The notes beneath the pieces were generated by a model. It did not search any database. It was not told the origin of the DNA and saw only the letters and a list, made by a program, of their open reading frames with translations. Below are positions 14,534 to 42,144 of a stretch of 64,000 nucleotides of DNA, in pieces. How positions within the stretch are numbered: the first letter of the stretch is position 1; every line of letters starts with the position of its first letter. The position numbers and the translations under genes were made by a program. This DNA comes from Streptomyces sp. BHT-5-2 (GTDB taxonomy: Bacteria > Actinomycetota > Actinomycetes > Streptomycetales > Streptomycetaceae), in assembly GCF_019774615.1 (NCBI RefSeq), contig NZ_CP081496.1:310001-374000 (forward strand), given 5' to 3'.

Positions 14534-14540
14534 TGCGCCG

Positions 14541-15002: not shown

Positions 15003-15353
15003 TCGCCCTCCCCAACCCGCACAACCTGCTGCAAGCAGGATCGACGCTACACATGACAGCGCGCCCCGTCACAAGTACCGCTCTCTACACCACCTGAGTA
15101 CACATGCTCAGTCTGGTCGACACGCCTCAACGTGATCGCATCAGCGGACCCCGTCAGACGCGGAGTTACGACCGGCGGAACTCAGACGAGGCCCAAAGCA
15201 GCCCAACGCAGCACCACGCACAATTCCGCGTCCGATCACGCTTGCTGCCAGCGTCCGCGCGCAGCTGACGACCACACCGCATATACAGAATGGCGTGGGG
15301 TGGACGCCCGTCCGATGCGCGCCCACCCCAAAGCCATGCCCGTCCATCGGTTG
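15003..15353. other. Intergenic region between the hydrolase unit and esxA
   Basis: No gene is evident. It should carry the promoter for the 14541-15002 gene and, near 15297-15329, a hairpin that may end the esx transcript. Confidence 0.5.
15297..15329 (-). terminator. Possible hairpin terminator after esxBA
   Basis: GGGGTGG (15297-15303) pairs with CCACCCC (15323-15329) around a 19-base loop, 25 bases beyond the esxA-like stop on the minus strand. There is no T-run, so it is weak evidence. Confidence 0.3.
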
Positions 15354-15650: not shown

Positions 15651-15733
15651 ACTCTCCCCCACTTCTCGGAGTTGTTGCTCGGTGGTCGTGGTGCGCCCGC
15701 CAGGAAGTCGATGCCCCAGCGTTATAGCGACGT

Positions 15734-16096
15734 CTAGTAGTTGCTGATGCCGCTGGCAGCGCCGGGATCCAGGCGCCCGCCGGCTGCACCACCGTTGACG
15801 TCGATGCCCCGGAAGCTGGACAGCACCTCGGCATCATTGGAGTCGCTGGTGGTGCTGGTACGGGCAACGGCGTCGTTAATGCCGTCGAGCATCCGGCGCA
15901 GCGCGGCGTGATCCTCATTGAGTGCGTTCTGTGCCTGCCGGAAGGCACTGGCACCCTGGCCCGTCCACGCCGTCTCGACCGCCGCGATGGCGTTCACCAA
16001 AGTACGCAGCTGCGCCGACATCGACTGGCTACCGCTCTGGATCTCGCTCTTGAGCTTCTCGATCTCCGCATACGTAAGTGCGGTGTTCCCTGCCAT
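15734..16096 (-). CDS. WXG100-family protein (EsxB-like) with extended tail
   Basis: 120 residues. W-T-G at residues 44-46 lies between two helices (EIEKLKSEIQSGSQSMSAQL and SAFRQAQNALNEDHAALRRM). The C-terminal tail is about 20 residues longer than usual and Gly/Ala-rich (VNGGAAGGRLDPGAASGISN); no YxxxD/E is present, consistent with its partner carrying the signal. First gene of an esxBA pair, 83 bases before esxA. Confidence 0.92.
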   Translation of the reverse strand: MAGNTALTYAEIEKLKSEIQSGSQSMSAQLRTLVNAIAAVETAWTGQGASAFRQAQNALNEDHAALRRMLDGINDAVARTSTTSDSNDAEVLSSFRGIDVNGGAAGGRLDPGAASGISNY

Positions 16097-16229
16097 GATC
16101 CACCTTCCCCCATGAGTAAGTGTTGAAGCCGAGCAATTTCGTTTCTCGACTTCACGTTACGGCCACCCAGCGAGGGCCGCCTGAACTCCGGTCACTCTAG
16201 TCACATGACTTGAGTCGCAATCTCCCTTC

Positions 16230-17435: not shown

Positions 17436-17484
17436 GGTGTAGTGTCCTTCCCTTCGTCCTGGACGTTGCACGATCACGTCAGCG

Positions 17485-19188: not shown

Positions 19189-19209
19189 CGTCTTCTCTTC
19201 CCCCTCGCG

Positions 19210-19776
19210 TCAGATGCCGTCGGCGCCCGCGGACTGGCCCTCGCCCCTGCCGGCTGTGGCGGAACCGGCGGTGTCGGTGGGCCGCTTCTCGGGCCGTGGT
19301 GCCTGGTACAGCTCCTGGGTGCGGCGCTGGATGGTCGCCAGGCGGTGCTTCACGTCGGCGTCGATGGCTTCGTAGCCGCTTTGGGCGACCTGGGAGCCGA
19401 TGCTCAGTGCCTCGATCTGGTCGCCGAACGCCTTGGAGAACGCTTCCAGTTGGGCCAGCACCTTCTCGTACGCGGTGGCCAGGCCGTGGGCCTCGGCGAA
19501 GCCCTGGCCGAAGGAGGCAGGAGCGATCTTGCGGTGGCCGAGCGTCCCCGGGGCCGCGTTCGAGGCTTTCAAGCGTGCCAGCAGGTCGTCTACCCGCTTC
19601 TTGAAGTTCGCCAGCGTCTCGGCTTCGACGGCAAGATCGGCGCTCTTGCCTTGTGGTGCTACCCCGTTCACCTGCATGCCAGTGGTCTCGTCGGCCCGCA
19701 TGGCGTTCTTCCCCCCGGATGCTGCTATGCGTAAGTCACCTACGTCAGGAGCCACTCTATCCATCACCTCTGACAA
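19210..19776 (-). CDS. Helical T7SS-associated hypothetical protein
   Basis: 188 residues, mostly helical (LAVEAETLANFKKRVDDLLA, AYEKVLAQLEAFSKAFGDQI, YEAIDADVKHRLATIQRRTQ), with a disordered tail. Resembles ESX accessory or substrate proteins of the EspE/WXG type without a clear WXG. The start may be further in (ATG for MRADETTGMQ or MQVNGVAPQG). It lies 21 bases upstream of the large WXG protein and is probably its partner. Confidence 0.65.
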   Translation of the reverse strand: MSEVMDRVAPDVGDLRIAASGGKNAMRADETTGMQVNGVAPQGKSADLAVEAETLANFKKRVDDLLARLKASNAAPGTLGHRKIAPASFGQGFAEAHGLATAYEKVLAQLEAFSKAFGDQIEALSIGSQVAQSGYEAIDADVKHRLATIQRRTQELYQAPRPEKRPTDTAGSATAGRGEGQSAGADGI

Positions 19777-19891
19777 CGGCCGTGCGTCTTACATCCATGC
19801 GTTCGGGGAGCTCGCTATCTCCTAATGTCCAGAAGCGTAGTCGTTGGCGCCGTTTGGTTCATGGGCCACGACCCCAGGAAAGTGAGTACGG

Positions 19892-21211
19892 CTACTTATT
19901 GACGCGGGGCGCCCGCGGGCGTGCGCCCCGTTTGCGGGCATCTCGCCAGACGACGGCGGCGCCCGCGATGACCGCGACCGCGACGCCGCCCGCTCCCAGG
20001 CCGTACGTCGCGTAGCGCTCCGTCCGCTCCTGTGGGCTCTCGCCGTCGGGCCAGGCGGTGGGGTCGGGTGGTGTGGCCTTGGTCAGGCCGTTGGTCGCGG
20101 TGGGGTGGTCGATGGGGTGGGTGTCGTCGGTGAGGGCGCGTACCGGGTCTACGACGCCCCAGCCGACGAAGGGGTCTTGGCCGTTGACGGTGCGTTCGGC
20201 GGTCTGCTCGATCTGGGCGACGATCTGGTACTCCTTCCAGTCCGGGTGCTTGGCCTTCAGGAGGGCGGCGACGCCGGCGACGTAGGGGGCGGAGAAGCTG
20301 GTGCCGTTGTCCACGCACTGGCCGCCCTTGGGGACGGTGGAGACCATGTCCACGCCGGGGGCGGCGACGCCGATGAAGGCGCCGCTTTGAGAGAAGGGGG
20401 CGCGTTCGTTGTTGCGGTCGGAGGAGGCGACGGCCAGCACCCCGTCGTACGCGGCCGGGTAGGTGTCCTTGAGCTGGCCGTCGAGGCCGTCGTTGCCTGC
20501 CGAGGCGACGACGACGATGTTCTTGTGCCGGGCTTCCTGGATGGCAGCCGCCAAGTCGGAGTTGGGGGAGAGGGGCTTGGTGGTGTCCTGGGAGATGTTG
20601 ATGACGTCCGCGTCGGCGGCGATCGCCTTGCGGATGGCTTGGGCCAGGGTGGCGGCGTTGCCGCTGCCCTTCTCGTCGTTCTGGCGAAGGGGGATGATGG
20701 TGGCTTCGGGGGCGAGCCCGACGAAGCCGGTGCCCGCACGTGGGCGGGCGGCGATGATGCCGGCGACCTTGGTGCCATGGCCCACCGGGTCGTACGTGCC
20801 GTCCGTCGGCGCCTTCGGATCCCTCGCCACGTCGCTTCCGGCGTCCTTGGTGTTGTGCAGGAAATCCCAGCCGCTCTTGGCGTCGACGGCCTCGGCCAGC
20901 TGTGGGTTGGTGTTGTCGACGCCGGTGTCGATGACGGCGACGCGTACCGGGCGGCCGTGCGCGTCCCGGCCCTTGGTGTCCTGCCACAGCTGGTCGAAGA
21001 CGATGCGCTGCAGCGCCCAGGGGCGTTCCTTGATCTGTTGCTTCATGGGGAAGGTACAGACACCGTTCCCCCGAGGGACCGGCGTGACGTCCTCCCCGTC
21101 CGCGGCGTGGGCGACCGCGGCCGACGACACGGGGGCAACGCTCCCGATCAGTCCCATAAACAGGGTGGCAGTGGCCGTGCCCCATGCGGCTGATGTACTT
21201 CTCCGCCTCAC
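19892..21211 (-). CDS. mycP: Mycosin (MycP-like S8 serine protease), second copy
   Basis: 440 residues from GTG 21211 with GGGGAG five bases upstream. Signal peptide, then the subtilisin triad: Asp in VAVIDTGVD (about residue 91), His in VGHGTKVAG (about 145), Ser in NGTSFSAPYVAG (about 305). Conserved cysteines flank the propeptide-like region (GVCTFPMKQQ) and the active site (GGQCVDNGTS). C-terminal membrane span and basic tail. It starts 17 bases after eccB, the position normally held by mycP in ESX operons, so this is the canonical copy. Confidence 0.93.
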   Translation of the reverse strand: MRRRSTSAAWGTATATLFMGLIGSVAPVSSAAVAHAADGEDVTPVPRGNGVCTFPMKQQIKERPWALQRIVFDQLWQDTKGRDAHGRPVRVAVIDTGVDNTNPQLAEAVDAKSGWDFLHNTKDAGSDVARDPKAPTDGTYDPVGHGTKVAGIIAARPRAGTGFVGLAPEATIIPLRQNDEKGSGNAATLAQAIRKAIAADADVINISQDTTKPLSPNSDLAAAIQEARHKNIVVVASAGNDGLDGQLKDTYPAAYDGVLAVASSDRNNERAPFSQSGAFIGVAAPGVDMVSTVPKGGQCVDNGTSFSAPYVAGVAALLKAKHPDWKEYQIVAQIEQTAERTVNGQDPFVGWGVVDPVRALTDDTHPIDHPTATNGLTKATPPDPTAWPDGESPQERTERYATYGLGAGGVAVAVIAGAAVVWRDARKRGARPRAPRVNK

Positions 21212-21227
21212 TGCGTCTCCCCGTTCC

Positions 21228-22787
21228 TCAGGAGCCCTGGGGCTGGCGGGCGGCGTTCGCGTCCAGCCGGGGCCCCATCGGGAGGAACTGCGACCAGTTC
21301 GTCGGTACCAGCACCGGTTTGATGCCCTTGTAGCCGAGGAGGATCTGCGCCCGGTTGGTCTCCTGGGAGCCTTGGCCGGATTGCTGTTCCTTGGCCGGGC
21401 CTGTGGTGCCGATGCCGGAGTGCTTGGCGCTGCTGTCGTTGTTGGTCTGGACGCCGTAACGCAGGCCCGTGTCCGTGACGAGGAAATGCGCCCCGGAGAC
21501 GACATCTCCCGGCTGGATCTGCTTGTAGAACAGGCCCGTTCCCGGGGTCACGTACGCGCTGGTACCGCCGTTGGCGATCTGCTGGGGGAAATCCTTTCCG
21601 GCCCAGGTACTCAGCTCCGTACCACCAGTCTTCGACACCCCACGCAGCACACTGCAGACCGTGCCCCGGCCACCTTGAGCCGTGGCCGTGTTGACCTGCT
21701 CGGTCATCTCCTGCGGCCACTGTTTCTCGGCGAACAGCTGCTGCGCCTGTGGGGTGAAGGACTGTGCGTCCACCTCGGTGGGGCGGTTGTGTTGTTCCAG
21801 CGGGGCCGTCTGACGGGAGAACAGGAGCAGTTTGGCGACGAAGTCGGAGACGGGGACGACCTTGCCCTGGAGGACGACGTAGTGCTGGGTGCCGTCGCCG
21901 GTTGTCGCGCGCAGCACCGTGCCGATGCGGTTTTCGCGTGCGCCGAGTCCCTTGACGTTGGCGGGCTGGGTGACCGTTCCAGGCAGGGTGGGGAAGGCGA
22001 TCGGTGTGCCGTCGTGGAAGGTGGCGAGCCAGTCCTTGGTGACCTGCTGGGGCTGCCGGCTTCCCACCAGGGCACGCAGTAGCAGTTCGGTGTCGCTGCC
22101 ACCGTCGATGAGGTACTTGGTGCCCTTCGGGTCGACCAGGTACCGAGCCCCGCCGGATTCTCCGGATTCGCCGGATCCCTTGGTCTCTTGGACGTAGAGG
22201 GCCTGGCCTCCGTGTAGCCGGCCTGGTCCCTCCACCTTGTCCGCGTCGCGGTCGGCGAAGAGGAAGGTGGCCTTCTGTACGGACCTGCCGTTGTTGCCCG
22301 GTTGTTCGCAGACCGCCCAGCGCTTGCTCCTCGCCGCGTCGCCGGCATCCGGGAGGCGGTCGGGGGCGTAGGGGATGCCCAGGGTCGGGCCGTGCTGGAG
22401 CTTTCCGTTGTCCAGCTCGCTCTCGTCGACCTTGAGGACGTCAGAACGGTCGGGTTTGACGAGCAGTCGGGCGGAGGCCATGTTCAGGACGGGATGCAGC
22501 TGCCGCTTGCCGCCCGTCTCCAGGACCACGTACAAGGTGGCAGATTTGCTGCCCAGGATGACGTGCGCGCCGGGGGTGTCCCAGCCCTTGGGGGCCTTGG
22601 GGCGGAACATGCCCCAGGCGCCGAATCCGGCCAGGACCAGGGCGGCGACGACCAGGCCGGGCAGCACCGCGCGCAGCGGGCTCGGGGCGCCCTCGTCCGT
22701 ATGGTCGGGGGAGGGCTGCAGGAAGGCGGCCACCAGCCGTTTCTTGGCGAAGGTGTAGCCGTTGAGCTCGTCCCGCCGTGATGCCAT
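21228..22787 (-). CDS. eccB: Type VII secretion protein EccB
   Basis: 519 residues. Typical EccB start (MASRRDELNGYTFAKKRLVA), one membrane anchor (residues about 41-61), then the periplasmic repeat domain with LGSKSATLYVVLETGGKRQL, RYLVDPKGTKYLI and a cysteine pair (RWAVCEQPG, GTVCSVLRGV). EccB is a core membrane component that stabilises the ESX hexamer. Located between eccD and mycP. Confidence 0.95.
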   Translation of the reverse strand: MASRRDELNGYTFAKKRLVAAFLQPSPDHTDEGAPSPLRAVLPGLVVAALVLAGFGAWGMFRPKAPKGWDTPGAHVILGSKSATLYVVLETGGKRQLHPVLNMASARLLVKPDRSDVLKVDESELDNGKLQHGPTLGIPYAPDRLPDAGDAARSKRWAVCEQPGNNGRSVQKATFLFADRDADKVEGPGRLHGGQALYVQETKGSGESGESGGARYLVDPKGTKYLIDGGSDTELLLRALVGSRQPQQVTKDWLATFHDGTPIAFPTLPGTVTQPANVKGLGARENRIGTVLRATTGDGTQHYVVLQGKVVPVSDFVAKLLLFSRQTAPLEQHNRPTEVDAQSFTPQAQQLFAEKQWPQEMTEQVNTATAQGGRGTVCSVLRGVSKTGGTELSTWAGKDFPQQIANGGTSAYVTPGTGLFYKQIQPGDVVSGAHFLVTDTGLRYGVQTNNDSSAKHSGIGTTGPAKEQQSGQGSQETNRAQILLGYKGIKPVLVPTNWSQFLPMGPRLDANAARQPQGS

Positions 22788-22907
22788 GACGCTGCGCTTC
22801 CCCCTGCTCCCTCTACGGCCGCTTCTGGAGTCATCCGGTAGCCGTCCGGTCCTGCTGGTTCCCGGGCCCCGGGCCGAGCCTCTATGTCCTTAAACCGCTC
22901 GTCTTCC

Positions 22908-24404
22908 TCAACCGCTGGTCATGCTTCGCGCCTGGCTGTACAGGTCCAGGACCGCCAGGCACAGCGGCATCAGGGACAGCAGCAGGAATCCGTCGGCGAG
23001 ATCGAGCACCCGGCCCCAGAACGGTGTCATCCCCTTCTTCGGCACCGTCAGCGCGACCGTCGTCACCAGCGCCACCGCGCCGATGACCACGAGCGCCAGC
23101 CACAGCGTACGCAGATCCAGCGGGGTGCGGTCGCCCGTAAGGAAGTCGTTCAGCATCCCGGTGGGCGGGTTGAAGGCCACGCCCAGTGTCAGGAGGGAGA
23201 GTGCGGCCAGGCCGGCGACGACCGCGCAGGCGACCTGGGAGGTGTAGCGGAAGAGCCGGGCGCGCAACAGCGTCGCCAGACCGGTGGCGAGGGCAAGCAG
23301 CTGCGCCCACGCGGAGTGGGCGAAGCCGAGGACGCCCGCGGCCCCGATGAGGACCGCGCAACAGCCGCCGAGCAGCCCCAGCAGCAGTTCATGCCCGCGG
23401 CGGGCCTGGGCAGCGATGCGCTCCTCATCGACGGGCTCCAGACCAACCGGGCCCAGACCGACGGGCTGCTCACCACCCCTCAGTTCCGCCCCCGCCTCCC
23501 GCTCCTGGCTCAGGCTGCGCGGAGTGGCGTATCCGATAGGCAGCCGGGCCAGGCGCGTGGCCAGCCCTGGCAGAAAGGCCATGACGCCGATGACCACGGG
23601 CGCGCAGACGGCCGCGGCCTGGGCGGCCGTCGCCTCGCTGATGATGGCGAGGAAGGCGGCGAGAGTGGCGACGGCTGCGGCGAACGTGGCAGCGATGAAC
23701 GGCGCGTCACCGGACGGCGACAACGCAACCAGGGCGACGGAGACGACGAGCACGGCAACACAGCCCAGCAGGAACTGCAGCCGCCCGGCCCCATGCCCTG
23801 CGTCCGGACCGACGATCCCCGAGCCCGCGCACAGCATCACCGGCAACGCGCCCAGGCCGAGCGCGACGGCGGACGGCTGGTCCCCGTAGACCCGGGCCCG
23901 GACCCCTGCGAACGCGGCCAACAGCACACCGGCCGTACCGGCGATCACGCCCGGCAGGCTGTGCATGTCGTGCCGCACCGGGTCGGCGAACCACAGCACC
24001 AGAGCAAGAAGAGCGAGCAGCACCCCGACCCCGACCAGACCCGTCCCGCGCAGCAGACCGTCGTGCCACAAACGGCGGTCCCGGGTGACGGCGGCAGCCA
24101 CCGCGTCCGAAACATCGTCGAAGACCGCCGGCGGAAGCGACTTCGAGAAGGGGCGCAGGTGCAGCATCTCGCCGTCGACGACGCGCTGGTCGGCGAGGGT
24201 GCGGGCGCTGTCGAGCGCGCTGCCGTCGGCACGGAAGAGGTAGTAGCCGGTCGGTGCGCCCGGGGGCTGTCGCTGGCCGGTCAGGCGCAGGATCTCCGGG
24301 TAGATGTCGGAGACCGGGATGTTCTCGGGCAGGGCCACGTCGATACGGCTGTCGGGGGCGACCACCGCGACCCTGCGGAAGCCGGTCCCCGTACTCATGC
24401 TCAC
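22908..24404 (-). CDS. eccD: Type VII secretion protein EccD
   Basis: 498 residues. N-terminal ubiquitin-like domain (RRVAVVAPDSRIDVALPENI ... ADQRVVDGEMLHLRPF) followed by about eleven membrane helices. Matches EccD, which lines the ESX inner-membrane pore as a dimer. It is first in the minus-strand eccD-eccB-mycP run and divergent from eccC. Confidence 0.95.
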   Translation of the reverse strand: MSMSTGTGFRRVAVVAPDSRIDVALPENIPVSDIYPEILRLTGQRQPPGAPTGYYLFRADGSALDSARTLADQRVVDGEMLHLRPFSKSLPPAVFDDVSDAVAAAVTRDRRLWHDGLLRGTGLVGVGVLLALLALVLWFADPVRHDMHSLPGVIAGTAGVLLAAFAGVRARVYGDQPSAVALGLGALPVMLCAGSGIVGPDAGHGAGRLQFLLGCVAVLVVSVALVALSPSGDAPFIAATFAAAVATLAAFLAIISEATAAQAAAVCAPVVIGVMAFLPGLATRLARLPIGYATPRSLSQEREAGAELRGGEQPVGLGPVGLEPVDEERIAAQARRGHELLLGLLGGCCAVLIGAAGVLGFAHSAWAQLLALATGLATLLRARLFRYTSQVACAVVAGLAALSLLTLGVAFNPPTGMLNDFLTGDRTPLDLRTLWLALVVIGAVALVTTVALTVPKKGMTPFWGRVLDLADGFLLLSLMPLCLAVLDLYSQARSMTSG

Positions 24405-24722
24405 CGTGTTCAGCTCTGCCCCCTGCTCACCTGGTCATCCGGCCACTTAGGTCACGCGGCCGCCCGGTCACTTGCTCATCCACTTGTTCATCGCCGCGGC
24501 GTTCCGCACGCGGCACTGCCGGGGCGCCATCGTGCCACCGCACCGTGGCGGCCACCGCAGCTTTGCGTCACCAGCCTTGTGTCACAGGCTTTGTGTCACC
24601 GCGCCGCGAGGCCCTTCCCACTCGTCACATTAGTCGGCAGTAGGATCGCCTGACGCGGGGGGCGCCGTCGCCAGGGGGCGATCGGGACGGAACTTCCCTC
24701 CGTGTCGAGGGATTGATGCTCG
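24405..24722. promoter_or_regulatory. Divergent eccD/eccC control region
   Basis: 318 bases between two core T7SS genes. Contains the three direct repeats listed separately and further GTCAC/CTCATC-like motifs (GGTCACTTGCTCATCC, CACTTGTTCATC). No gene is seen. A weak GAGGGA about 11 bases before the eccC GTG may serve as ribosome site. Confidence 0.55.
24561..24600. repeat. Three 12-bp direct repeats with 14-bp period
   Basis: CTTTGCGTCACC (24561-24572), CCTTGTGTCACA (24575-24586) and CTTTGTGTCACC (24589-24600) follow each other with two-base spacers. This looks like tandem regulator-binding sites in the eccD/eccC promoter region. Confidence 0.65.
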
Positions 24723-27700
24723 GTGAGCCAGATCGTCGTCAAGCGCCCACCGCGGGCGCTTCCGCCCGGCCCCGCCACGGACGAGCTGCACCTGCAAGCC
24801 CCGCCGGAGCTGCCGCGCGGCCAGCAGGAGGGCGTGCTGATGCAGCTCCTGCCGATGCTCGGCATGGGCTCGTCGGTGGTCTTCTTCTTCATGCCGGGCA
24901 TGCCGCCGTTCATGCGCATCATGGGCGCGCTGATGCTCGTCTCGACGATCGGCATGGTCCTCGCCCAGATCGTCCGCTACCGCAGAGGCACCCAGGGCGA
25001 GATGGCGCAGAGCCGCCGGGACTACCTCAAATACCTGGCGCAGACCCGCCGCCGCATCCGCCGCACCGCCACCGCCCAGCAGGGCGCCCAGCACTACCTC
25101 CACCCCGCCCCCGACCAGCTGTGGTCCATCGTCGCCGAGGGCAGCCGCGTCTGGGAGCGCCGCATCGGCGACGCCGACTTCGCACAGGCCCGCATCGGCC
25201 TGGGCACCCAGCAACTGGCCACCCCGCTTGTCGCCCCCGACACCGCCCCCGTCGACGAACTCGAACCGCTGACCGCCGGCATCATGCAGCGCTTTCTCGC
25301 CACCCACGGCTCGCTGCACAACATGCCGATCGCACTCTCCCTGCGCGCCTTCTATCACCTCACGGTCTCCGGCGAGCCGGCCTGCGCCCAGGGCACGGCC
25401 CGCGCCCTGATCGGTCAGCTCGTCACCCTGCACTCGCCGGCCGACCTCCTGGTCGCCGTGGTGGCAGCCCCCGGCGCCATCGACCGGTGGGAGTGGACGA
25501 AGTGGCTGCCGCACACCCAACTGCCCACCTCAGCTGACGGCGCCGGCACCCGACGCCTGTTCACCGACGACCTCACCGAACTCGAAACCCTCCTGGCCGG
25601 CCACCTCGCCGACCGCCCCCGTTTCAGCAAGGACGCTCCGCCCCTCCTCGACCGGCCCCACCTCGTCATCGTCCTGGACGGCGGCATGGTCCCCGCCGAC
25701 TCCGCCTTCGCCGCCCCCGAGGGCCTCCAAGGCGTCACTGTCATCGAGGTCGTCTCCGGCGAACTCGACGAACCCCGCGGCGGCCTGTCGGTAACCTCCC
25801 ACCCCACCCGCCTGCGCCTGGAATCGGCCGTCTCCGTCTACGACGGCACTCCCGACCTGCTGTCCCTGGAGCGCGCCGACACCCTCGCCCGTCAACTCGC
25901 GCCCCTGTACGTGGACGGCACCGACGAGGACGAACCGCTCCTGGCCAATCTGGACTTCACCGACCTCCTCGACCTCGGCGACCCCGCCGACGTGGACACC
26001 GCTCACACCTGGCGCCCCCGCTCCCAACCCGAACGCCTACGCGTCCCGATCGGCGTCGACGAATCCGGCCAACCCGTCATGCTCGACCTCAAGGAAGCCG
26101 CCCAGAACGGCATGGGCCCCCACGGCCTGTGCGTCGGTGCCACCGGCTCCGGCAAATCCGAGCTCCTGCGTACCCTCGTCCTGGGCCTGTCGGTCACCCA
26201 CTCCTCCGAGACCCTCAACTTCATCCTCGCCGACTTCAAGGGCGGCGCCACCTTCGCCGGCATGTCCGCCCTCCCGCACGTCGCCGCCGTCATCACCAAC
26301 CTCGCCGACGATCTCTCCCTCGTCGACCGCATGGGCGACTCCCTCCGCGGCGAACTCCAACGCCGCCAGGAACTGCTCCGCCAAGCTGGCAACTTCGCCA
26401 GCATCCATGACTACGAAAGGGCCCGAGCCGCCGGCCACCCCCTCGACCCGCTGCCCTCCCTCGTCCTGGTCATCGACGAGTTCAGCGAACTCCTCACCGC
26501 CAAGCCCGACTTCATCGAGATGTTCATCCAGATCGGCCGCATCGGCCGGTCCCTCGGCGTCCACCTCCTCCTAGCCTCCCAACGCCTGGAGGAAGGCCGC
26601 CTGCGCGGCCTGGACACCTACCTCTCCTACCGCATCGGCCTGCGCACCTTCTCCGCCGCCGAATCCCGCGTCGCCCTCGGCGTCCCCGACGCCTACCACC
26701 TCCCCTCCGTCCCCGGCTCCGGCTACCTCAAATTCGGCACCGACGAGATGACCCGCTTCAAGGCCGCCTACGTCTCCGGCCCCCACCGATCGGCGAGCAG
26801 CCGCACGGACCACGACGCATTCCCCATCCAGCAGCGCGCCGCCCTCTTCACCGCCACACCCGTCCCCGTCACCAGCCCCGCCCCGACCGCGCAACCCGCC
26901 GCCCCCGAGGCACCCGCCCAGACCGACGGCGCATTGGCCGACACCGTCCTGGACGTCATCGTCCGCCGCCTGGACGGCCAGGGACCACCCGCCCACCGCG
27001 TCTGGCTCCCGCCCCTGGACACCGCCCCCAGCCTCGACCAACTCCTCGCGGCCCTGACCACCACCCCCGACCGCGGCCTGCACGCCACCGACCACCCCAC
27101 AACCGGCCGCCGCCCCCTCACTGTCCCCTTCGGCCTGGTCGACAAGCCCTTCGAACAACGCCGCGACACCCTCCACCACGACTTCTCCGGCGCCACCGGC
27201 CACCTCCTCATCATCGGCGGCCCCCAGTCCGGCAAATCCACCCTCCTGCGCACCCTCATCAGCGCCTTCGCCCTCACCCACACACCCCACGAAGTCCAGT
27301 TCTACGGCCTCGACTTCGGCGGCGGCTCACTCAGCTCCCTCACCGGCCTCCCGCACGTCGGCTCCATCGCCTCCCGCCTGGACCCCGAACGCATCCGCCG
27401 CACCGTCGCCGAGGTCGCCGGCATCCTCGCCCGCCGCGAGGAGTACTTCCGCACCCACCACATCGACACCATCACCACCTACCGCCGACGCCGCGCCGAA
27501 GGCCACCTCCCCGACCAGCCATGGGGCGACGTCTTCCTCGTCATCGACGGCTGGGGCCCCTTCAAGGACGAATACGAACACCTGGAACCGATCGTCACCG
27601 ACCTCGCCTCCCGCGGCCTCGGCTTCGGCATCCACATCATCCTCACCACCTCCCGCCACCTCGAAGTCCGCGCCGCCCTCAAGGACCAAATCCTCGGCCG

Positions 27701-28682
27701 ACTCGAACTCCGCCTGACCGACCCCATGGACTCCGAGTTCGACCGCAAGACCGCCGCCAACGTCCCACCCGGCGTCCCCGGCCGCGGCCAAACCCCAGCC
27801 AAACTCCACTTCCTCACCGCCCTCCCCCACACAGGAAAGCCAGGCACCACCACCGAACTCGTCGACGCCACAGCAGAGTTCATCCGCACAGTCGCCGAAA
27901 ACTGGACCGGCCCCTCCGCCCCCGCCGTCCGCCTCCTCCCCCTCACCGTCCCCACCGCCCACCTCCCCAAGGGCTCCGACTTCCCCCACCGCGGCATCGC
28001 CCTCGGCCTCGACGAAACCAACCTCGAACCCGTCTACACCGACTTCGAAACCGACCCCTTCCTCCTCATCTTCGGCGAAAGCGAATCCGGCAAGACCGCC
28101 ACCCTCCGCCACCTCGCCCACAAAATCGCCGAACGCTACACCCCCGACGAAGCCAAAATCGTCGTCGGCGACTATCGCCGCACGCTCCTCGGCGCCGTCC
28201 CGGACGGGCACCTCCTCGAATACGCCCCCACCGACGACACCCTCGACATCCACATGAACGCCCTCGCCGGCCTCATGGAACGCCGCCGCCCCGCCCCCGA
28301 CGTCACCCCCCAACAGCTCCGCGACCGCAGCTGGTGGACCGGCCCCCGCTTCTTCGTCTTCCTCGACGACTACGACCTCATCGCCACCAGCACCAACAAC
28401 CCCCTAGCAGTTCTTGCCGACAAACTCCCCTACGCCCGCGACACCGGCATCCACTTCATCCTCACCCGCACCACAGCCGGCATCTCCCGCGCCCTCTACG
28501 AACCCGTCCTCCAACGCCTCACAGAACTCGGTGCCCAGGCCCTCATCCTCTCGGGCGACCCCAATGAAGGCGACATCCTCGCCAACGTCCGCCCCCGCCC
28601 CCTACCCCCAGGGCGCGCCCACTACATCACCCGCAAACGCGGCACATCCCTGGTCCAGCTGGGCTGGCAACCCGACCAATAG
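24723..28682 (+). CDS. eccC: Type VII secretion ATPase EccC (fused EccCa/EccCb)
   Basis: 1319 residues from GTG 24723. Two membrane helices near residues 39-85 precede three FtsK/SpoIIIE ATPase domains. Walker A motifs are intact in all: GATGSGKSE (about 472), GGPQSGKST (about 831), GESESGKTA (about 1117). Walker B-like strands are LVLVIDEFSELL, VFLVIDGWG and FFVFLDDYD. EccC recognises WXG substrates and powers export. The single-polypeptide form is usual in Streptomyces. Transcribed away from the rest of the cluster. Confidence 0.97.
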   Translation: MSQIVVKRPPRALPPGPATDELHLQAPPELPRGQQEGVLMQLLPMLGMGSSVVFFFMPGMPPFMRIMGALMLVSTIGMVLAQIVRYRRGTQGEMAQSRRDYLKYLAQTRRRIRRTATAQQGAQHYLHPAPDQLWSIVAEGSRVWERRIGDADFAQARIGLGTQQLATPLVAPDTAPVDELEPLTAGIMQRFLATHGSLHNMPIALSLRAFYHLTVSGEPACAQGTARALIGQLVTLHSPADLLVAVVAAPGAIDRWEWTKWLPHTQLPTSADGAGTRRLFTDDLTELETLLAGHLADRPRFSKDAPPLLDRPHLVIVLDGGMVPADSAFAAPEGLQGVTVIEVVSGELDEPRGGLSVTSHPTRLRLESAVSVYDGTPDLLSLERADTLARQLAPLYVDGTDEDEPLLANLDFTDLLDLGDPADVDTAHTWRPRSQPERLRVPIGVDESGQPVMLDLKEAAQNGMGPHGLCVGATGSGKSELLRTLVLGLSVTHSSETLNFILADFKGGATFAGMSALPHVAAVITNLADDLSLVDRMGDSLRGELQRRQELLRQAGNFASIHDYERARAAGHPLDPLPSLVLVIDEFSELLTAKPDFIEMFIQIGRIGRSLGVHLLLASQRLEEGRLRGLDTYLSYRIGLRTFSAAESRVALGVPDAYHLPSVPGSGYLKFGTDEMTRFKAAYVSGPHRSASSRTDHDAFPIQQRAALFTATPVPVTSPAPTAQPAAPEAPAQTDGALADTVLDVIVRRLDGQGPPAHRVWLPPLDTAPSLDQLLAALTTTPDRGLHATDHPTTGRRPLTVPFGLVDKPFEQRRDTLHHDFSGATGHLLIIGGPQSGKSTLLRTLISAFALTHTPHEVQFYGLDFGGGSLSSLTGLPHVGSIASRLDPERIRRTVAEVAGILARREEYFRTHHIDTITTYRRRRAEGHLPDQPWGDVFLVIDGWGPFKDEYEHLEPIVTDLASRGLGFGIHIILTTSRHLEVRAALKDQILGRLELRLTDPMDSEFDRKTAANVPPGVPGRGQTPAKLHFLTALPHTGKPGTTTELVDATAEFIRTVAENWTGPSAPAVRLLPLTVPTAHLPKGSDFPHRGIALGLDETNLEPVYTDFETDPFLLIFGESESGKTATLRHLAHKIAERYTPDEAKIVVGDYRRTLLGAVPDGHLLEYAPTDDTLDIHMNALAGLMERRRPAPDVTPQQLRDRSWWTGPRFFVFLDDYDLIATSTNNPLAVLADKLPYARDTGIHFILTRTTAGISRALYEPVLQRLTELGAQALILSGDPNEGDILANVRPRPLPPGRAHYITRKRGTSLVQLGWQPDQ

Positions 28683-28795
28683 CCCACCTGCGAGCAGGAG
28701 CTGGCCTCGTAGGTGCGGCGCCAGGCGCTGTCGTTGCGGTGGCAGGTGCGGACCCAGTAGCGGTCGTCGTTGCAGCGTGGGCGTCCAACACCACG
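28622..28795 (-). pseudogene. Possible Cys/Trp-rich gene fragment overlapping the eccC end
   Basis: An open frame without a start codon, closed upstream by TGA, encodes RPRCNDDRYWVRTCHRNDSA then RTYEASSCSQVGYW before a TAG. The regular Cys/Trp/Tyr spacing looks protein-like, but the frame overlaps the last 61 bases of eccC antisense. It may be the tail of a decayed secreted-protein gene or chance. Confidence 0.25.
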
Positions 28796-32066: not shown

Positions 32067-32730
32067 GCGTTTCCTCGTAACCGCTGGTCAGAGGTGGGGT
32101 GATCTTGCCGTGGCTGGCCGGCGCAGGAGCCGTCTGCGCCGCGGACCGCATCATCGACCACCTTGACCCGTCGCTCGCACTCCAGCAACGTAAAGGGCTA
32201 TTCATAAGGCCACCGTGCTGATCATGGACGGCACTCTGGCCCCCTCCCTCGACCACGCCACGCATGGCCCATGAGTGCCCATGCGGACCCGTGATCTTGG
32301 GCGTTCCACCGGGCTGAGCCGACCTGGCGTGGCGGGACGCTCGGGCATGAGGTCGGCGACGGCGGTGTGGATGGCTCCGCGGCTGACATGGCGATCGCGG
32401 GCCAGACCGGCAATGGACTGGCAGCCCAGGCACCCGGCGCGGAGGCAGCGGCCTCCGCTGCCGTGACGACCGGACCCCCAGGTACTAGCGGGAGGAGCGG
32501 GTCTGACTGGGAAACGGAATCCTGCCGAGCAATGCGCGGAGCAAGAGATCCGCTCCAAACGCCTATTACCCGGCCCTCCCCAACACGGACAGGTCTCACG
32601 CTTAGGGGATCCGTGGGTGGCGGGGCATTGGGTGATTGTCTTTTGGGGGTGGGGAGTTCTGCTACCGTCGAGACGTCACTTCAAGAATTCCGGTGGATTT
32701 CAGCTGGTCTACCGGGAGGAGGTGATTTGG
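32067..32730. other. Decayed region between small genes
   Basis: Contains the HTH fragment at 32339-32417 (minus) but no intact gene that I can support. The right end includes the presumed promoter and the strong ribosome site of the 45-residue gene. Confidence 0.5.
32339..32417 (-). pseudogene. HTH fragment of a lost gene
   Basis: The minus strand encodes SIAGLARDRHVSRGAIHTAV followed by ADLMPE, a good helix-turn-helix of the kind found in recombinase or transposase-associated proteins. Flanking sequence in the same frame shows no continuation of a domain and is rich in Pro/Arg. Treated as a relic. Confidence 0.4.
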
Positions 32731-32868
32731 TTGTCCGGCAGGAACCTCGACGAGGAGACCAGGCCGGACCGGACCAAGCGGCAGTTAGCCGTCCAGGCGT
32801 TCACTCTGATCGCGCGAGCCAGCCAGGCCGCGTACTGGGTGTACAAACTGCTCTGGGAGCTGTTCTAG
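32731..32868 (+). CDS. 45-residue amphipathic small protein
   Basis: TTG start at 32731, seven bases behind AGGAGGT, one of the best ribosome sites in the window. GTG 32722, inside that site, is unlikely. The product has a charged head (SGRNLDEETRPDRTKRQ) and a hydrophobic aromatic tail (AYWVYKLLWELF). It is followed within 10 bases by two strong hairpins. No family recognised; a membrane-active or toxin-like peptide is possible but not shown. Confidence 0.55.
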   Translation: MSGRNLDEETRPDRTKRQLAVQAFTLIARASQAAYWVYKLLWELF

Positions 32869-32875
32869 CAGCATC

Positions 32876-32909
32876 GATGGGCCCGGCCGGTGCAACGGCC
32901 GAGCCCATC
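32876..32909 (+). terminator. Hairpin terminator after the 45-residue gene
   Basis: GATGGGCCCGGCCG (32876-32889) pairs with CGGCCGAGCCCATC (32896-32909) with one mismatch and a six-base loop. Seven bases past the stop codon. No T-run. Confidence 0.6.
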
Positions 32910-32925
32910 CAAGGTCCGGAACCGG

Positions 32926-32962
32926 GGGCCCCACGATCTCGTGCATCAGAGGCGTGGGGCCC
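32926..32962. terminator. Second hairpin downstream of the 45-residue gene
   Basis: GGGCCCCACG (32926-32935) and CGTGGGGCCC (32953-32962) are perfect inverted 10-mers with a 17-base loop. Probably a back-up terminator or RNA structure. Confidence 0.5.
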
Positions 32963-33171
32963 GACTCATTTGAGGACCGAGTGATCCATCCGGCTTCCCG
33001 GAACTGGCGATCAGACGCCAGCATACATCGATTTACCGATTCGCGGTACCCAATCAATTCCGGATCTCAACTCGCGGAATCGAGAAACTGCAGAAACTCG
33101 TGAAATGGGAATTCCCGCGAGCGTGAGCCTTCGTTCTCCCGTTTCACTTCTGCTTCGGCGGTTTTGTTTCG

Positions 33172-33973
33172 GGATTCTGTGTGGTGTTTCGGGGTGGGGT
33201 GGGTCGGCTTCGAGGGCATCCCCGTTCGTTTCGGGAGCACGTTCCTCGGCTTCAGGTCCGTTTCGGGAGCACGCCCTGGGGCTTCGAGGCCGGCGGGTCT
33301 CGTCTCGGTCTCACGCCGCCGGGTCTCGGTCTCACGGGCACAGGTCTCGGTCTCACGCCGCCGGGTCTCGGTCTCACGGGACCGGGTCTCGGTCTCACGC
33401 TGCCGGGCCTCGTCTCACGGTGCCGGGCCTCGGTCTCACGGTGCCGGGTCTCGGTCTCGCACAGGTCTCAGCGGGCAGGCAGCGGCACAAGATCGCGCTT
33501 CAACGACATGAAGCCCGGCTTCAACGACGGCTGTCGCGACACGACGACGTACTCCGTGTCGCTGTCGCCGCCTTGCCCCCGGACGTCTGCCACGTCCGGA
33601 CGGCATGGGGTGTCCGACGTCGTCCGACGAGTTGTCGCCCTGCCCGTGCCCGGACTGCGCCCTGCCTTCGCCTCGGCTGCGCCCTGCCCGTGACGGGGCC
33701 CTGACGAACCGGCACGGTTCGCGTCACGCTGCACCGGCGAACCGTGCCGGACCGTGACGCGGTCCGTTACGGTCCCCGGCGGACCGTGCTGGGGAACTGG
33801 GGAACCCTGTTGAGGACCGCGTGGGGACCGGTCCCCAACCCGCTTCACCGGTGAGCGCACGAGCGCGAGCGCGACCACGCTCAGTGAGCGTAAACGCCGT
33901 GAAACCGTGAGCGTGAACGGTGCGCACCACACCGTCCTCCGCACCATTCACGCACACCGGTAAACCGGTAAAC
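33172..33973 (+). repeat. Left 802-bp arm of a giant inverted repeat
   Basis: This arm is the reverse complement of 34268-35069: the translations of the two arms agree in all three frames, and the ends were compared base by base. Coordinates sum to 68241 throughout, so there are no internal gaps. The arm contains 21-bp tandem repeats (33295-33470) and nested palindromes such as TGGGGACCGGTCCCCA (33822-33837) and CCGGCACGGTTCGC paired with GCGAACCGTGCCGG (33709-33722 and 33737-33750). Open frames in it look non-coding. Confidence 0.95.
33295..33470 (+). repeat. 21-bp tandem repeats in the left arm
   Basis: About eight copies of a unit like GGTCTCGGTCTCACGCCGCC, starting at 33295, 33322, 33343, 33364, 33385, 33406, 33426, 33447 and ending in a short copy at 33464. 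The first half (GGTCTCGGTCTCACG) is conserved and the last six bases vary. Mirrored in the right arm. Confidence 0.9.
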
Positions 33974-34267
33974 AGGAGCGGTAATCCGTACGGTACGGCG
34001 CCCGTACAGACACGGCGACGTACGACTGCACGCCTCCGTACCGTACGGAGGCGTGCAGCTGTACCGGCACGGCCGTACGGGCGTCTCCCGAAGAGCTTCC
34101 CGCCCAGGCGGGAAGCGGATTCCCGGCAGGCCGCCTATCCCTCGCGGTGGCCGTACGGGCGACGTACAAGCGCCTTACGGGAGTCTCGGGGACGCTCCCG
34201 TACGGGAGCCGTACGGGAGCGGTAGGACGCTTGCACTACCGCACGTTCTGGGAACTGGAAATCTCCG
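33974..34267. repeat. 294-bp palindrome-rich centre of the giant inverted repeat
   Basis: Not symmetric about the midpoint but packed with smaller palindromes: CTGCACGCCTCCGTAC / GTACGGAGGCGTGCAG (34026-34041, 34043-34058, one-base centre), GCTTCCCGCC / GGCGGGAAGC (34095-34104, 34107-34116), CTCCCGTACGGGAG (34195-34208), and many CCGTACGG copies. No convincing gene. Confidence 0.85.
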
Positions 34268-35069
34268 GTTTACCGGTTTACCGGTGTGCGTGAATGGTGC
34301 GGAGGACGGTGTGGTGCGCACCGTTCACGCTCACGGTTTCACGGCGTTTACGCTCACTGAGCGTGGTCGCGCTCGCGCTCGTGCGCTCACCGGTGAAGCG
34401 GGTTGGGGACCGGTCCCCACGCGGTCCTCAACAGGGTTCCCCAGTTCCCCAGCACGGTCCGCCGGGGACCGTAACGGACCGCGTCACGGTCCGGCACGGT
34501 TCGCCGGTGCAGCGTGACGCGAACCGTGCCGGTTCGTCAGGGCCCCGTCACGGGCAGGGCGCAGCCGAGGCGAAGGCAGGGCGCAGTCCGGGCACGGGCA
34601 GGGCGACAACTCGTCGGACGACGTCGGACACCCCATGCCGTCCGGACGTGGCAGACGTCCGGGGGCAAGGCGGCGACAGCGACACGGAGTACGTCGTCGT
34701 GTCGCGACAGCCGTCGTTGAAGCCGGGCTTCATGTCGTTGAAGCGCGATCTTGTGCCGCTGCCTGCCCGCTGAGACCTGTGCGAGACCGAGACCCGGCAC
34801 CGTGAGACCGAGGCCCGGCACCGTGAGACGAGGCCCGGCAGCGTGAGACCGAGACCCGGTCCCGTGAGACCGAGACCCGGCGGCGTGAGACCGAGACCTG
34901 TGCCCGTGAGACCGAGACCCGGCGGCGTGAGACCGAGACGAGACCCGCCGGCCTCGAAGCCCCAGGGCGTGCTCCCGAAACGGACCTGAAGCCGAGGAAC
35001 GTGCTCCCGAAACGAACGGGGATGCCCTCGAAGCCGACCCACCCCACCCCGAAACACCACACAGAATCC
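34268..35069 (-). repeat. Right 802-bp arm of the giant inverted repeat
   Basis: Reverse complement of 33172-33973. The outer boundary lies at ACAGAATCC (35061-35069) against GGATTCTGT (33172-33180); beyond it the flanks differ except for a short GTTTCG/CGAAAC match offset by five bases. No flanking target duplication was found. Confidence 0.95.
34771..34946 (-). repeat. 21-bp tandem repeats in the right arm
   Basis: Mirror image of the left-arm array: CGTGAGACCGAGACC units on the plus strand with a variable six-base spacer. Confidence 0.9.
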
Positions 35070-35741
35070 GCGGCCGAAACGGCGAGACGGGATCGTGCGG
35101 AGTTGGGCGCCGGAAATCCCAACGAGATTGATCCCAGCAGTGGCTGGCCCGTCCCGCGGTGCTGCGTGCCGCCGAGTGAGGTGCGGCGGGGGCCCTCGAA
35201 GACATCGGTATTCGGAAGGGATTTCCCTGGCGCCCTGCCAGTTGGCAGCCGCCGGACATCAACCGCTCGCCCACGGTGAGCCCTGTGCGGGAGGAGCCTC
35301 CTCCTCACGGCGCTCGACAGCCACCCGCCGTTCGGCGGAGGGTGCTCTGACCGGGCTCCGCCATCGCTGCGGGTGAGGCGAGGCAACCGAAGCCCTGGTG
35401 AGACCGGGCGCGCGGTTCCGCGTCGGACAGTCCCCCACGGCGTCCGCGCCCCCCTCCGGACACCCCGCACCAGTGTGGCGTTCATCACAGGAGAGGGGGA
35501 GTCGCCGCTTCGGCCGCCAGGTGGGCGGGTACCGCATGGGAGGGCGGAACGGCGTCGCGGCCCCGGAGTTGGAGCTAAGCGGAATCTCGTGCCGCCGGTT
35601 GTCCGGGTCGGCCCGCCAGCGGGCGGGGCGCGTCCTGGACCCCAGATAAGCTCACATATCCGGGATCCAGGCGACACAAAGCCTGGTACAGAAACGGTGT
35701 GACGGGCATCCAGGGGGACCCTGACAAGCAGGGATCTGTCG
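35070..35741. other. Gap right of the giant inverted repeat
   Basis: About 670 bases with only Arg/Pro/Gly-rich open frames on both strands. I recognise no domain and support no gene here. Hypothesis: degenerate DNA of a former mobile element, given the integrase fragment that follows. Confidence 0.5.
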
Positions 35742-35929: not shown

Positions 35930-35962
35930 GCGAGGCTGGCGGGTGGGTTCATCGAGCGGCGT

Positions 35963-37435
35963 TCAGCGGCACTGGGTGCGCAAGGTGGTGAGGTAGTCCG
36001 CGGCCCGGCGTTGCGGGTCGCTGTCGGTGCTGGCCCAGGCGATCCAGGCGTCCGGCCGGATGAGGACGGCGGTGGCGTCCCGCCAGATCGGGTCTGCCGT
36101 AACGGTGTTGACGGCGGCCACCTGCTGTTCCAGGCCGTCCGCGGAGCACGGTGTGTGGGTCCCGCTGAGGTCCAGCAGCAGTGGCCGGCCGTGGTGCATC
36201 AGCGGGTGGGCGGTGGGTGCGTCGGCGGTGTCCAGGGCGAGGCCGGCCAGTCGCGTGCCGTTCAGCGGGTGCGCGCCGGGTGTGGTGTCGGCGGGGTGTG
36301 GGTCGTCGAAGCCGGCGATCCGGCGGGCCCACCGGCGGTTGGTATGCGGTTCGGCGAGCGCGGCGGACCAGACCTCGCGCAGCGCGATCTGTTCCGGGCT
36401 CGCCGCGGCGAACAGGGCAAGCTGTGCGCGGGTGTTGTCGATGACGGCGCGGGCGGCCGGCCGGCGCTCCGTGTCATAGCTGTCGAGCAGTGCGTCGGGC
36501 GCCCGGCCCTGGAGGGTGGCGGCGAGCTTCCAGCCGAGGTTGGTGGCGTCCTGGATGCCGAGGTTCATGCCCTGGCCACCGGCCGGGAAGAACATGTGTG
36601 CCGCGTCCCCGGCCAGCAGCACCCGTCCGGCTCGGTACTGCGCGGCCTGGCGGGTGGCGTTGCCGTAGCGCGACAGCCAGCGGGGGTTGCGGATGCCCAG
36701 GTCCCGTCCCAGGAGCGTGCGGGTCTGCTCGCGCACCTCCTCCAAGGTCAGCGGTACACCGGTGCCATGGTGCATGGTGGCCGTGGACAGGCCCGCCAGC
36801 CGGTGGACGCCGTCGCCGATCGGGGCCGCCAGGAACGAGCCGGCCGGTCCGGTGGCGGCGAGCGGCGCGGTGGGCGGGTCGTCGAGTTCGACGTCGGCGA
36901 GCCACCCGGTCAGGGTGGTGTCCTGGCCGGGGAAGTCGATGCCGGCGGCCTGGCGTACCGCGCTGCGGGTGCCGTCGCAGCCCACCACCCAGCGGGCTCG
37001 CACGGACCGGTGGGTGCCGCCGGCCCGGACCACCACCTCGACGGCGTCCGGCCCCTGGGTGAGCGAGACGACCTCCTCCCCGCGCAGCACCCGGGCGCCC
37101 ACGGCAACTGCGTGCTCCTCCAGGAGCTGTTCGGTGACGGACTGCCCGAGCGCCAGCATGAACGGGTGCACCGCTCCGACCGTGGAGAAGTCCAGCCTGG
37201 TGGTCGCCGCCCCGAAGTGGCCGGTCGGCACCGGGGTGCCCTGTTCGATGAACCGCTCCGCGAGTCCGCGGGTGGCGAAGGTGTCCAGCGTGCCGGCCTG
37301 CATGCCGACCGCGCGCGACCGTCCGTCCGGTGCCGCCCGGCGTTCCACGACGGTCACCTCCACCCCATGCAGGCGCAACTCCGCAGCGAGCCAGAGCCCC
37401 ACCGGGCTGGCCCCCGCGATGAGTACGTCGAGCAT
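35963..37435 (-). CDS. FAD-dependent aromatic hydroxylase-type monooxygenase
   Basis: 490 residues, normal length for group A flavoprotein monooxygenases. FAD motifs: GxGxxG-type MLDVLIAGASPVGLWLAAEL, DG motif WVVGCDGTRSAVRQAAGI, and GD motif RVLLAGDAAHMFFPAGGQGM. The thioredoxin-like C-terminal domain ends with RPDAWIAWA. These NAD(P)H-using enzymes hydroxylate aromatic compounds or polyketides. Good ribosome site (AGAGGAAG). Same strand as the SnoaL-like gene and probably under the MarR regulator divergent to both. Confidence 0.9.
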   Translation of the reverse strand: MLDVLIAGASPVGLWLAAELRLHGVEVTVVERRAAPDGRSRAVGMQAGTLDTFATRGLAERFIEQGTPVPTGHFGAATTRLDFSTVGAVHPFMLALGQSVTEQLLEEHAVAVGARVLRGEEVVSLTQGPDAVEVVVRAGGTHRSVRARWVVGCDGTRSAVRQAAGIDFPGQDTTLTGWLADVELDDPPTAPLAATGPAGSFLAAPIGDGVHRLAGLSTATMHHGTGVPLTLEEVREQTRTLLGRDLGIRNPRWLSRYGNATRQAAQYRAGRVLLAGDAAHMFFPAGGQGMNLGIQDATNLGWKLAATLQGRAPDALLDSYDTERRPAARAVIDNTRAQLALFAAASPEQIALREVWSAALAEPHTNRRWARRIAGFDDPHPADTTPGAHPLNGTRLAGLALDTADAPTAHPLMHHGRPLLLDLSGTHTPCSADGLEQQVAAVNTVTADPIWRDATAVLIRPDAWIAWASTDSDPQRRAADYLTTLRTQCR

Positions 37436-37561
37436 GACAACCGCTTCCTCTCACCTTGGGACGATGCGCCATGACGGCGGCGCGTCGATGCGCCAGCCCA
37501 GGGGCGGCCTCGTGGCGTCAGGTGGGCAATGCGGCTCGGCTGGTCAGGCGGGCAATGTGAC

Positions 37562-40302: not shown

Positions 40303-42144
40303 GTGGGGCCGTCTGGTTCCCCCGTGATACGTGTGCCGGTCGGGGAGGGTGCCGATCGCTGGGTCAGTCGGGCGGTGCAGCGTCGGGTGCTGCTCGTGGT
40401 GCACAACGTGACCTCTGCGGGGCGGCTGCTGGATGTGCTGCCACTGTTCCATGACGACTTCCGGGTACAACTGCTGGTGACTGCCACGGAGTCGTCGGCG
40501 TTCCAGGGTGGGCTGCGGGAGCTGTTCGAGGAGTTGGGGCTGCCCGTGGTGCCGTGGGAGCAGGCGCTGCGGACACCGGTGGACCTTGCGGTTTCTGCCA
40601 GCTTTGGTGGGGAACTGCACCTGATTGACGGCAAGTTGACTGTCTTGTCGCATGGGGTTGGCTACACTAAGAGACTGGCCACGCCGGGAGCCGGGAGCCG
40701 GGAGCCGGGAGCCGGGAGCCGGGAGCCGGGAGCCGGGAGCCGGGAGCCGGGAGCCGGGAGCCGGGAGCCGGGAGCCGACGTTCGGGTTGTCGCGGGAGTG
40801 GTTGCTGGCCGAGGGCGAGCCGTTCGTGGACGGGCTGGTGCTGTCCCACCCGGAGCAGTTGGCGCGGTTGCGTCGTGCCTGCCCGGAGGCCGAGAAGGCC
40901 GCGGTACTCGCCGGCGACCCGTGTTTCGACCGCATGCTGGCCGGTCGACCGTATCGGGAGCGGTTCCGGCGTGCCCTGGGGGTGCGCCGGGGGCAGCGGC
41001 TCGTCGTCCTGAACTCGACCTGGAATCCGGAAGGGTTGTTCGGCAACGGCGGTGACCAGGACCTGCTGCCGAGTCTGCTGCCCCGGCTCGCCGCCGAACT
41101 GCCGGCCGACGACTACCGGCTGGCGGCCGTTCTGCACCCGAACATCTGGTACGGGCACGGCCCGGGCCAGATCCGGGTGTGGCTGGACCGGGCCCGCCGC
41201 GGCGGACTGACCCTGATCGACCCGGTGCACGCGTGGCGGCAGGCACTTCTGGCGGCGGATGCCGTGGTGGGTGACTTCGGGGCGGTCTCCTATATGCCGC
41301 GGCGCTGGGCATACCCGTGCTGCTGGCGGCCGCCGGGGAGGAGAAGCTGGATCCGGAGGCGCCGCTGGCGGCGTTCGTCCGGCAGGCTCCGCGGCTCGAT
41401 CCGTACGGCCCGCTGCCCGGTCAGCTGGCGGAACTACTGGCGCGGCACCGGCCGTTCGCCAGGCCCGCGGAGTTCACCAGCTCGGCCCCGGGCGCCTCCG
41501 CGGCACTGTTGCGGCAGCACTTCTACACGCTGATGGATCTCGCCGAGCCTGTTGCTCCCGCGCGGCTGGAGCCGTTGCCGCTGCCGCCGTACGAGCCGCC
41601 GCGGCGGACCGGTCCGCTGGATGTCCGCGCGCGGGTCCGCGGTGCGGAGGTCGTGATCGAGCGCGCCCAGGGGCATCCGTACGGAGCCGGGGGTGAGACG
41701 CATCGTGCGGTGCACGAGGACACCGTGGATCCCGCGGACCTGGCGACGGCCGATGTGATCCTGCGTGACGGGCCGCCGGACGACCCCCGATTCGGCAGCC
41801 CGGAGGAGTGGGCCGCGGAGGTGCTCGACCGGTATCCGCACTGTTCGCTCGCCGCCTATGTGAGCGGCCCGGACCGCTGCACGGTACGCACCCGGGACCT
41901 CGGTGTGCTCCGGCTGTCGGCGGGGTCGGGGGCGGATGCCGACCCCGCGGTGTACGCGTCGGCGTTGCATGCGTGGTTGGTGTGGGGCACCGCCGTGCCG
42001 TCCCGGGACGCCGTACCGCCCCGGGGCGGTACGGCGGTGCCCACGGCGCTTCGGGTGCGGGTGGCCGGTGGGGTGCATGCGGTGGAGGTGGCGCGCCCCG
42101 GTTGCGTGGCGCGTCCCGGTAGCGGCGATTCACCTGTTCCCTAG
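40303..42144 (+). pseudogene. CDP-glycerol glycerophosphotransferase-like gene broken by a 7-bp repeat and a frameshift
   Basis: GTG 40303 has AGGAGGT five bases upstream. The N-terminal part (QRRVLLVVHNVTSAGRLLDV ... LTVLSHGVGYTKRLA) is in one frame until 13 copies of GCCGGGA. After the repeat the domain continues in another frame (FGLSREWLLAEGEPFVDGLV, VLSHPEQLARLRRACPEAEK, LIDPVHAWRQALLAADAVVG). Near 41293 it returns to the first frame (YAAALGIPVLLAAAGEEKLD) and runs to TAG 42142-42144. The central part resembles GT-B polymerases of teichoic-acid type. With 12 or 15 repeat copies the first break would be in frame; the second needs one inserted base. Confidence 0.72.
40683..40777 (+). repeat. 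Heptanucleotide microsatellite (GCCGGGA)13
   Basis: Thirteen perfect GCCGGGA units (40683-40773) plus GCCG. The unit length is not a multiple of three, so gain or loss of a copy changes the reading frame of the surrounding gene. The array is open in the two frames used by the gene and encodes repeats of GAGSREP. Confidence 0.97.

Follow-up and report, generated by a model that had tools for sequence, protein, structure and literature searches.

A 1.9-kb palindrome in Streptomyces is most likely the hypervariable half of an apparently undescribed plasmid-derived cassette

Introduction

In the type I toxin–antitoxin loci Fst/RNAII of pAD1 and yonT/SR6 of B. subtilis, a peptide of fewer than 60 residues is encoded on a plasmid or prophage by a structured messenger, and a promoter on the opposite strand gives an RNA that overlaps the 3′ end. 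The locus described here resembles them in each of these respects, its messenger structure being predicted and its opposite-strand promoter putative. It has no sequence relation to them; the hydropathy of its peptide is modest, and a long hypervariable palindrome is attached to it.

In bacteria, long palindromes with perfect arms are normally not stable. Streptomyces telomeres, like the structure described here, contain many short palindromes. Long palindromes are known to form by foldback in this genus, whose telomere-less plasmids carry long near-perfect ones as large inverted duplications at their ends. The palindrome reported here is comparable in being long and near-perfect. Unlike those duplications, it lies internally between unique flanks and is found repeatedly behind members of one gene family; it differs from telomeres by its internal position, by its occurrence in circular hosts and by the absence of any match to plasmid ends.

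Results

Structure of the palindrome

We analysed a window of 64,000 nucleotides from Streptomyces sp. BHT-5-2 (bases 310001–374000 of contig 1; the assembly has two contigs and 9.13 Mb). An earlier note had described two apparently identical 802-bp arms around a 294-bp centre. We found that positions x and 68241−x do pair from 33172 to 33973, over 802 bp without indels or mismatch. The arms continue for 5 bp more past a single mismatch (33974 versus the partner of 34267), with pairing resuming to 33978. This gives arms of 807 bp each (33172–33978 and 34263–35069) at 99.88% identity and shortens the centre to a 284-bp spacer. The tandem 21-mers that had been noticed lie at 33302–33458 with a mirror copy, and the nested hairpins were recovered as nested short inverted repeats. 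The spacer is asymmetric and dense in CCGTACGG octamers, and its predicted fold has z = −6.8. The longest inverted repeat elsewhere in the window was 48 nt at 73%, which excludes a chance origin of the palindrome, and the element is present in one copy in its own genome.

The palindrome was found to be the variable half of a cassette of ~3.07 kb, delimited by alignment with loci L150 and L151. The arms themselves contain no evident gene, as the earlier note had stated; the cassette does, a 45-codon ORF lying ~300 bp outside the left arm. The features are as follows.

32514–35586, plus strand: whole cassette, from left to right end-motif copy (alignment with L150 and L151, end motifs)
32514–32523, plus strand: left end motif AAACGGAATC, one mismatch to AAGCGGAATC (alignment with L150 and L151)
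32660–32668, plus strand: putative sense extended −10 element TGCTACCGT (sequence, kept in L150 and L151)
32718–32726, plus strand: ribosome-binding site GGAGGTGAT (also in L150 and L151, predicted mostly paired)
32731–32868, plus strand: small ORF of 45 codons with a TTG start (homologues in ~16 lineages, no family match; moderate coding evidence)
32876–32909, plus strand: hairpin 1 of the 3′ untranslated region (compensatory changes)
32923–32964, plus strand: hairpin 2 of the 3′ untranslated region (compensatory changes)
32971–33171, no strand: lower-GC stretch, 0.54 (base composition)
33020–33027, minus strand: putative antisense extended −10 element, TGTATGCT on the minus strand (TGTANNNT type at this locus)
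33172–33978, plus strand: left arm, including the tandem 21-mers (self-complementarity)
33979–34262, no strand: spacer rich in CCGTACGG octamers (sequence, fold)
34263–35069, minus strand: right arm, the reverse complement of the left arm (self-complementarity)
35575–35586, plus strand: right end motif CTAAGCGGAATC (end-motif comparison)

The motif AAGCGGAATC bounds the cassette in the window, with one mismatch at the left end, and also in NBC_01431 plasmid 2 and the S. canus plasmid. In the plasmid DNA read for this purpose, which covered NBC_01431 plasmid 2 completely and the S. canus plasmid over 50 kb, no copy of the 10-mer was found apart from those at the two cassette ends. A direct repeat at both ends was present in three members at unrelated places and was not seen in other members; those of group 2 had a related left motif and no right copy. 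A scan of viral contigs with the right-end motif gave 83 scattered matches.

A family of cassettes

When the palindrome was used as query, distant blastn against 72,556 plasmids gave no match, plasmid ends included. There was likewise no match among phages, and 296 congeneric genomes yielded short, chance-like matches only. The family was reached through the left flank, of which 32633–32978 matched two plasmids at 79% identity, the circular NBC_01431 plasmid 2 and the linear plasmid 1 of S. canus NBC_01585. In both, a long and largely different palindrome followed soon after the matched segment, with 865-bp arms at 100% and a 272-bp spacer in NBC_01431 and several blocks at 97–100% in S. canus. 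Profiles of the small ORF then identified further members. Besides the window and these two plasmids, the family comprised G037, G147, K. papulosa, S. zaomyceticus, two S. albidoflavus strains and NBC_01343, as well as G030, G088, G138, G189, G086, pSHJG2, S. albus, S. coelicoflavus and G449. The last of these was the one of seven inspected weak matches in a family-level search that had the full hallmark. With strains of one lineage counted once, the small-ORF module occurs in ~16 Streptomyces lineages, mostly on plasmids; a search of phages with this module gave no match.

A long palindrome stands directly behind the small-ORF module in seven lineages and a tandem array in two. The other palindromes measured 252 bp at 100% (G147), 443 bp at 100% (K. 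papulosa), 298 bp at 97% plus 54 bp at 100% (S. zaomyceticus) and 124 bp at 100% plus further blocks (S. coelicoflavus). The arrays have units of 14 bp (S. albidoflavus) and 17 bp (G037), and G189 carries two direct 103-nt copies at 93%. Many repeat periods across the members are 21 or 42 bp. In six lineages, the module had no repeat module detected in the scans made, indicating that the two halves are separable. The homologues on linear plasmids are internal (at ~243 kb of 269 kb and 68 kb of 119 kb), and circular plasmids carry others.

We also screened 3.05 Mb of DNA, including 514 kb of this chromosome, under strict criteria for long inverted repeats lying close together (at least 80 bp, at least 90%, gap below 1.5 kb). 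This DNA is an indicative background and not a random sample, having been chosen partly on account of the family. Such repeats were found only in the family and in one transposase gene pair, the L107 candidate, an inverted pair of transposase genes that is not a family member. The scan is conservative, as it missed L151 and L257, whose palindromes with indels or long arrays were established separately. We consider it very probable that the structure is real and, jointly, that it belongs to a family. This family is apparently undescribed and consists of a small gene with conserved RNA structure beside a large variable palindrome or array; an open-access literature search returned nothing relevant on the cassette.

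Several other observations were made around the members. Integrase-like or tyrosine-recombinase-like genes lie near several of them. A protein of ~284–306 aa (58% identical between L257 and L260/L261) is encoded near several members and has a weak PADLOC match to PDC-S32. The modules L279, L280 and L284 are apparently chromosomal, lack a repeat module and are possibly domesticated; L279 and L280 adjoin an apparent NADPH:quinone reductase gene. On the S. albus plasmid NZ_CP103061.1, CRISPR-like arrays with a ~29-bp repeat and a 61-bp period (L295, 10433–14565) lie downstream of the small-ORF module and are apparently unrelated to it.

Turnover of the repeat module

Related members are 75–83% identical in the core over ~250–290 nt, and their arms share patches of at most ~100 nt. 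Within most elements, the two arms are ~95–100% identical to each other; those of S. canus and S. coelicoflavus are broken up by indels into stretches of high identity, as if decaying. Arms that diverge across members and agree within them show turnover of the repeat module to be far faster than that of the small-ORF module, with the arms repeatedly made or kept alike. The array varies even between the two S. albidoflavus strains, which carry 64.3 and 44.3 copies of the 14-mer within flanks ~97–98% identical.

The conserved core

The core ORF has 42–48 codons and a strong ribosome-binding site. Its peptide is amphipathic in the C-terminal half, with a net charge of +1 to +3, and its best 19-residue hydropathy mean of 0.6–1.4 is below that of a classic transmembrane toxin. 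Searches of Pfam, PHROGs, NCBIfam and PADLOC with the small ORF gave no match. Between close ORF pairs, changes at third codon positions were not in excess, so that conservation may act on an RNA and not on a protein; the region could then function at the RNA level or as a leader peptide.

At the RNA level, the two hairpins after the stop codon showed compensatory double changes in 12 of 26 predicted pairs. The predicted fold of 32667–32990 in the window had z = −6.0. For 17 of 19 loci the ribosome site was predicted to lie mostly within base pairs, a result that reached significance for a few single loci. Covariance models of Rfam 15 gave no match in 32500–33180, even at E up to 1. On the minus strand, 10 of 15 loci, not all independent because some are close relatives, carry TGNTAGNCT between +267 and +298 relative to the start of the ORF, against 0.125 expected and none on the other strand. 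The remaining five loci, the window included, have TGTANNNT-type motifs. This putative extended −10 element is oriented across the two hairpins. Between core and repeat module, a low-GC stretch is present in the repeat-bearing members and missing in L278–L280, which have no repeat module.

Discussion

We propose that the palindrome most likely forms the hypervariable repeat part of a cassette derived from plasmids. Its small-ORF half may work like a type I toxin–antitoxin locus for plasmid maintenance, to which we assign a probability of roughly 0.4. A ~45-residue amphipathic, positively charged peptide would be translated from a messenger that hides its ribosome site in a fold, and the putative antisense RNA would pair with the 3′ end of the messenger and hold expression off. 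The palindrome would be a satellite that foldback copying or gene conversion rebuilds and keeps uniform, and might be retained for its help to the plasmid in cis; that the foldback formation known in Streptomyces acts at this cassette is an argument from analogy. The type I-like reading is favoured by the small cationic amphipathic peptide, the folded messenger, the putative antisense RNA, the plasmid location and the core-only, apparently chromosomal copies. Against it may be set the modest hydropathy, the lack of a third-position excess, the separable halves and a ribosome-site pairing that is significant in few loci. Any specific role for the palindrome is less probable than this: possible ones are a centromere- or origin-like site, a duplex persisting in single-stranded DNA, or a functionless satellite.

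The family comparison bears directly on the explanations raised by the earlier note. Long palindromes are difficult to assemble, but an assembly or sequencing foldback artefact is extremely improbable here. The outer flanks are distinct and the arms differ by one base, and several other assemblies carry largely unrelated palindromes at the homologous site behind the same gene, which bears out the note's own doubt about a simple artefact. Joined telomere-like ends of linear replicons deserve as little credence: the many short nested palindromes do recall Streptomyces telomeres, but related cassettes occupy internal positions on linear plasmids and also occur on circular ones, plasmid ends give no match by blastn, and the spacer lacks symmetry. 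The third suggestion, a long-hairpin element with dedicated processing, came closest, although the conserved part lies outside the 33172–35069 interval on which it was based and no processing enzyme shared by all members was seen.

With regard to function, the repeat module could instead be a cis-acting plasmid site, such as a centromere or replication origin, with a low-GC opening region beside iteron-like arrays. The antisense RNA would then set copy number and would not control a toxin, and turnover would reflect incompatibility or self/non-self recognition. Like iteron and centromere arrays, the repeat-bearing members have tandem units, often of 21 bp (with many periods of 21 or 42 bp), next to a low-GC stretch, and the S. 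albidoflavus array is followed by a ParA-like gene. We nevertheless regard such a site as unlikely, since a Rep or Par gene shared by every neighbourhood was not found, a separate Rep_1 gene is present on the 14-kb S. zaomyceticus plasmid, apparently chromosomal copies have kept the core while lacking repeats, and the units, unlike those of described arrays, are wholly different between members and often form a perfect palindrome. A mobile unit with AAGCGGAATC at its ends, whose movement or replication left the palindrome as a functionless by-product of intra-strand annealing, is decidedly unlikely. In favour of it are the 10-mer that three members, at unrelated locations, carry at either end, the Streptomyces precedent for foldback formation and the tyrosine-recombinase-like genes close to several members. 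Against it, a functionless perfect palindrome should be lost, no right-end copy was found in group 2, no recombinase is common to all members, and no empty site was found through synteny of the right flank or of the Hsp70-like gene on the left. A role in the single-stranded plasmid during transfer or rolling-circle replication, where a long duplex would offer promoters or binding sites, is very unlikely. A perfect palindrome stays double-stranded within single-stranded DNA whatever its sequence, which fits a conserved structure with free sequence; relaxase genes lie near G037 and K. papulosa, and the Frpo single-stranded promoters of F, which form a comparable duplex, provide a precedent shown in vivo (PMC9849209). 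However, tandem arrays and repeat-less members fit this role poorly, members reside on plasmids of differing transfer types and in a chromosome, and compared with Frpo the cassette palindrome is much longer, is not conserved in sequence and has no shared downstream leading gene. Finally, the cassette could be a new kind of plasmid element, with a dedicated process that time and again rebuilds a long perfect palindrome, or an array, beside a conserved small-peptide or structured-RNA gene, palindromicity being selected and not sequence. The product would be a structural site, for example a duplex surviving in single-stranded DNA or a fast-diverging plasmid-recognition site; we hold this reading to be doubtful.

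Should the type I-like reading be correct, the cassette would be a type I-like system in Streptomyces, of which a limited literature search found none described; a palindrome that is a programmed structure would be something new. Either way, the coordinates mark out a gene and structured-RNA family, carried by Streptomyces plasmids, that has apparently not been described before. Palindromes recur in it at one genetic position with their sequence replaced almost wholesale, despite their usual instability in bacteria. It thereby becomes testable how Streptomyces tolerates, regenerates and homogenises palindromes, and whether structure can be selected over sequence.

Genomic setting

To the left of the cassette lie type VII secretion genes and the Hsp70-like gene. 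The secretion locus (12700–28700), in lower-GC DNA, includes EccB, EccC, EccD, subtilases and WXG100-like small proteins. The Hsp70-like gene and its neighbours are at most 83% identical in DNA to segments of other Streptomyces plasmids, and their stretch has ~65–70% GC versus ~72–75% further right. On the right, 86% similarity to another genome starts at 35920. The plasmid relatives of the window's genome are nearly all from Streptomyces. Hsp70 and right-flank synteny place the cassette where plasmid-like DNA adjoins chromosomal DNA. None of the four contig ends has an apparent telomere; all resemble coding sequence.

Further features were seen in the same region. A remnant at 32341–32473, immediately left of the cassette, resembles serine recombinase genes of many Streptomyces plasmids, and a ~4.6-kb run of N occurs at about 290000–297000 of contig 1. 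To the right of the cassette, a FAD-dependent monooxygenase gene (35945–37458) has a second copy, 94% identical, at 3613855–3615368 of the same contig, and a short tandem DNA repeat at 40652–40790 reads GSREPGAGSREPGA in one frame.
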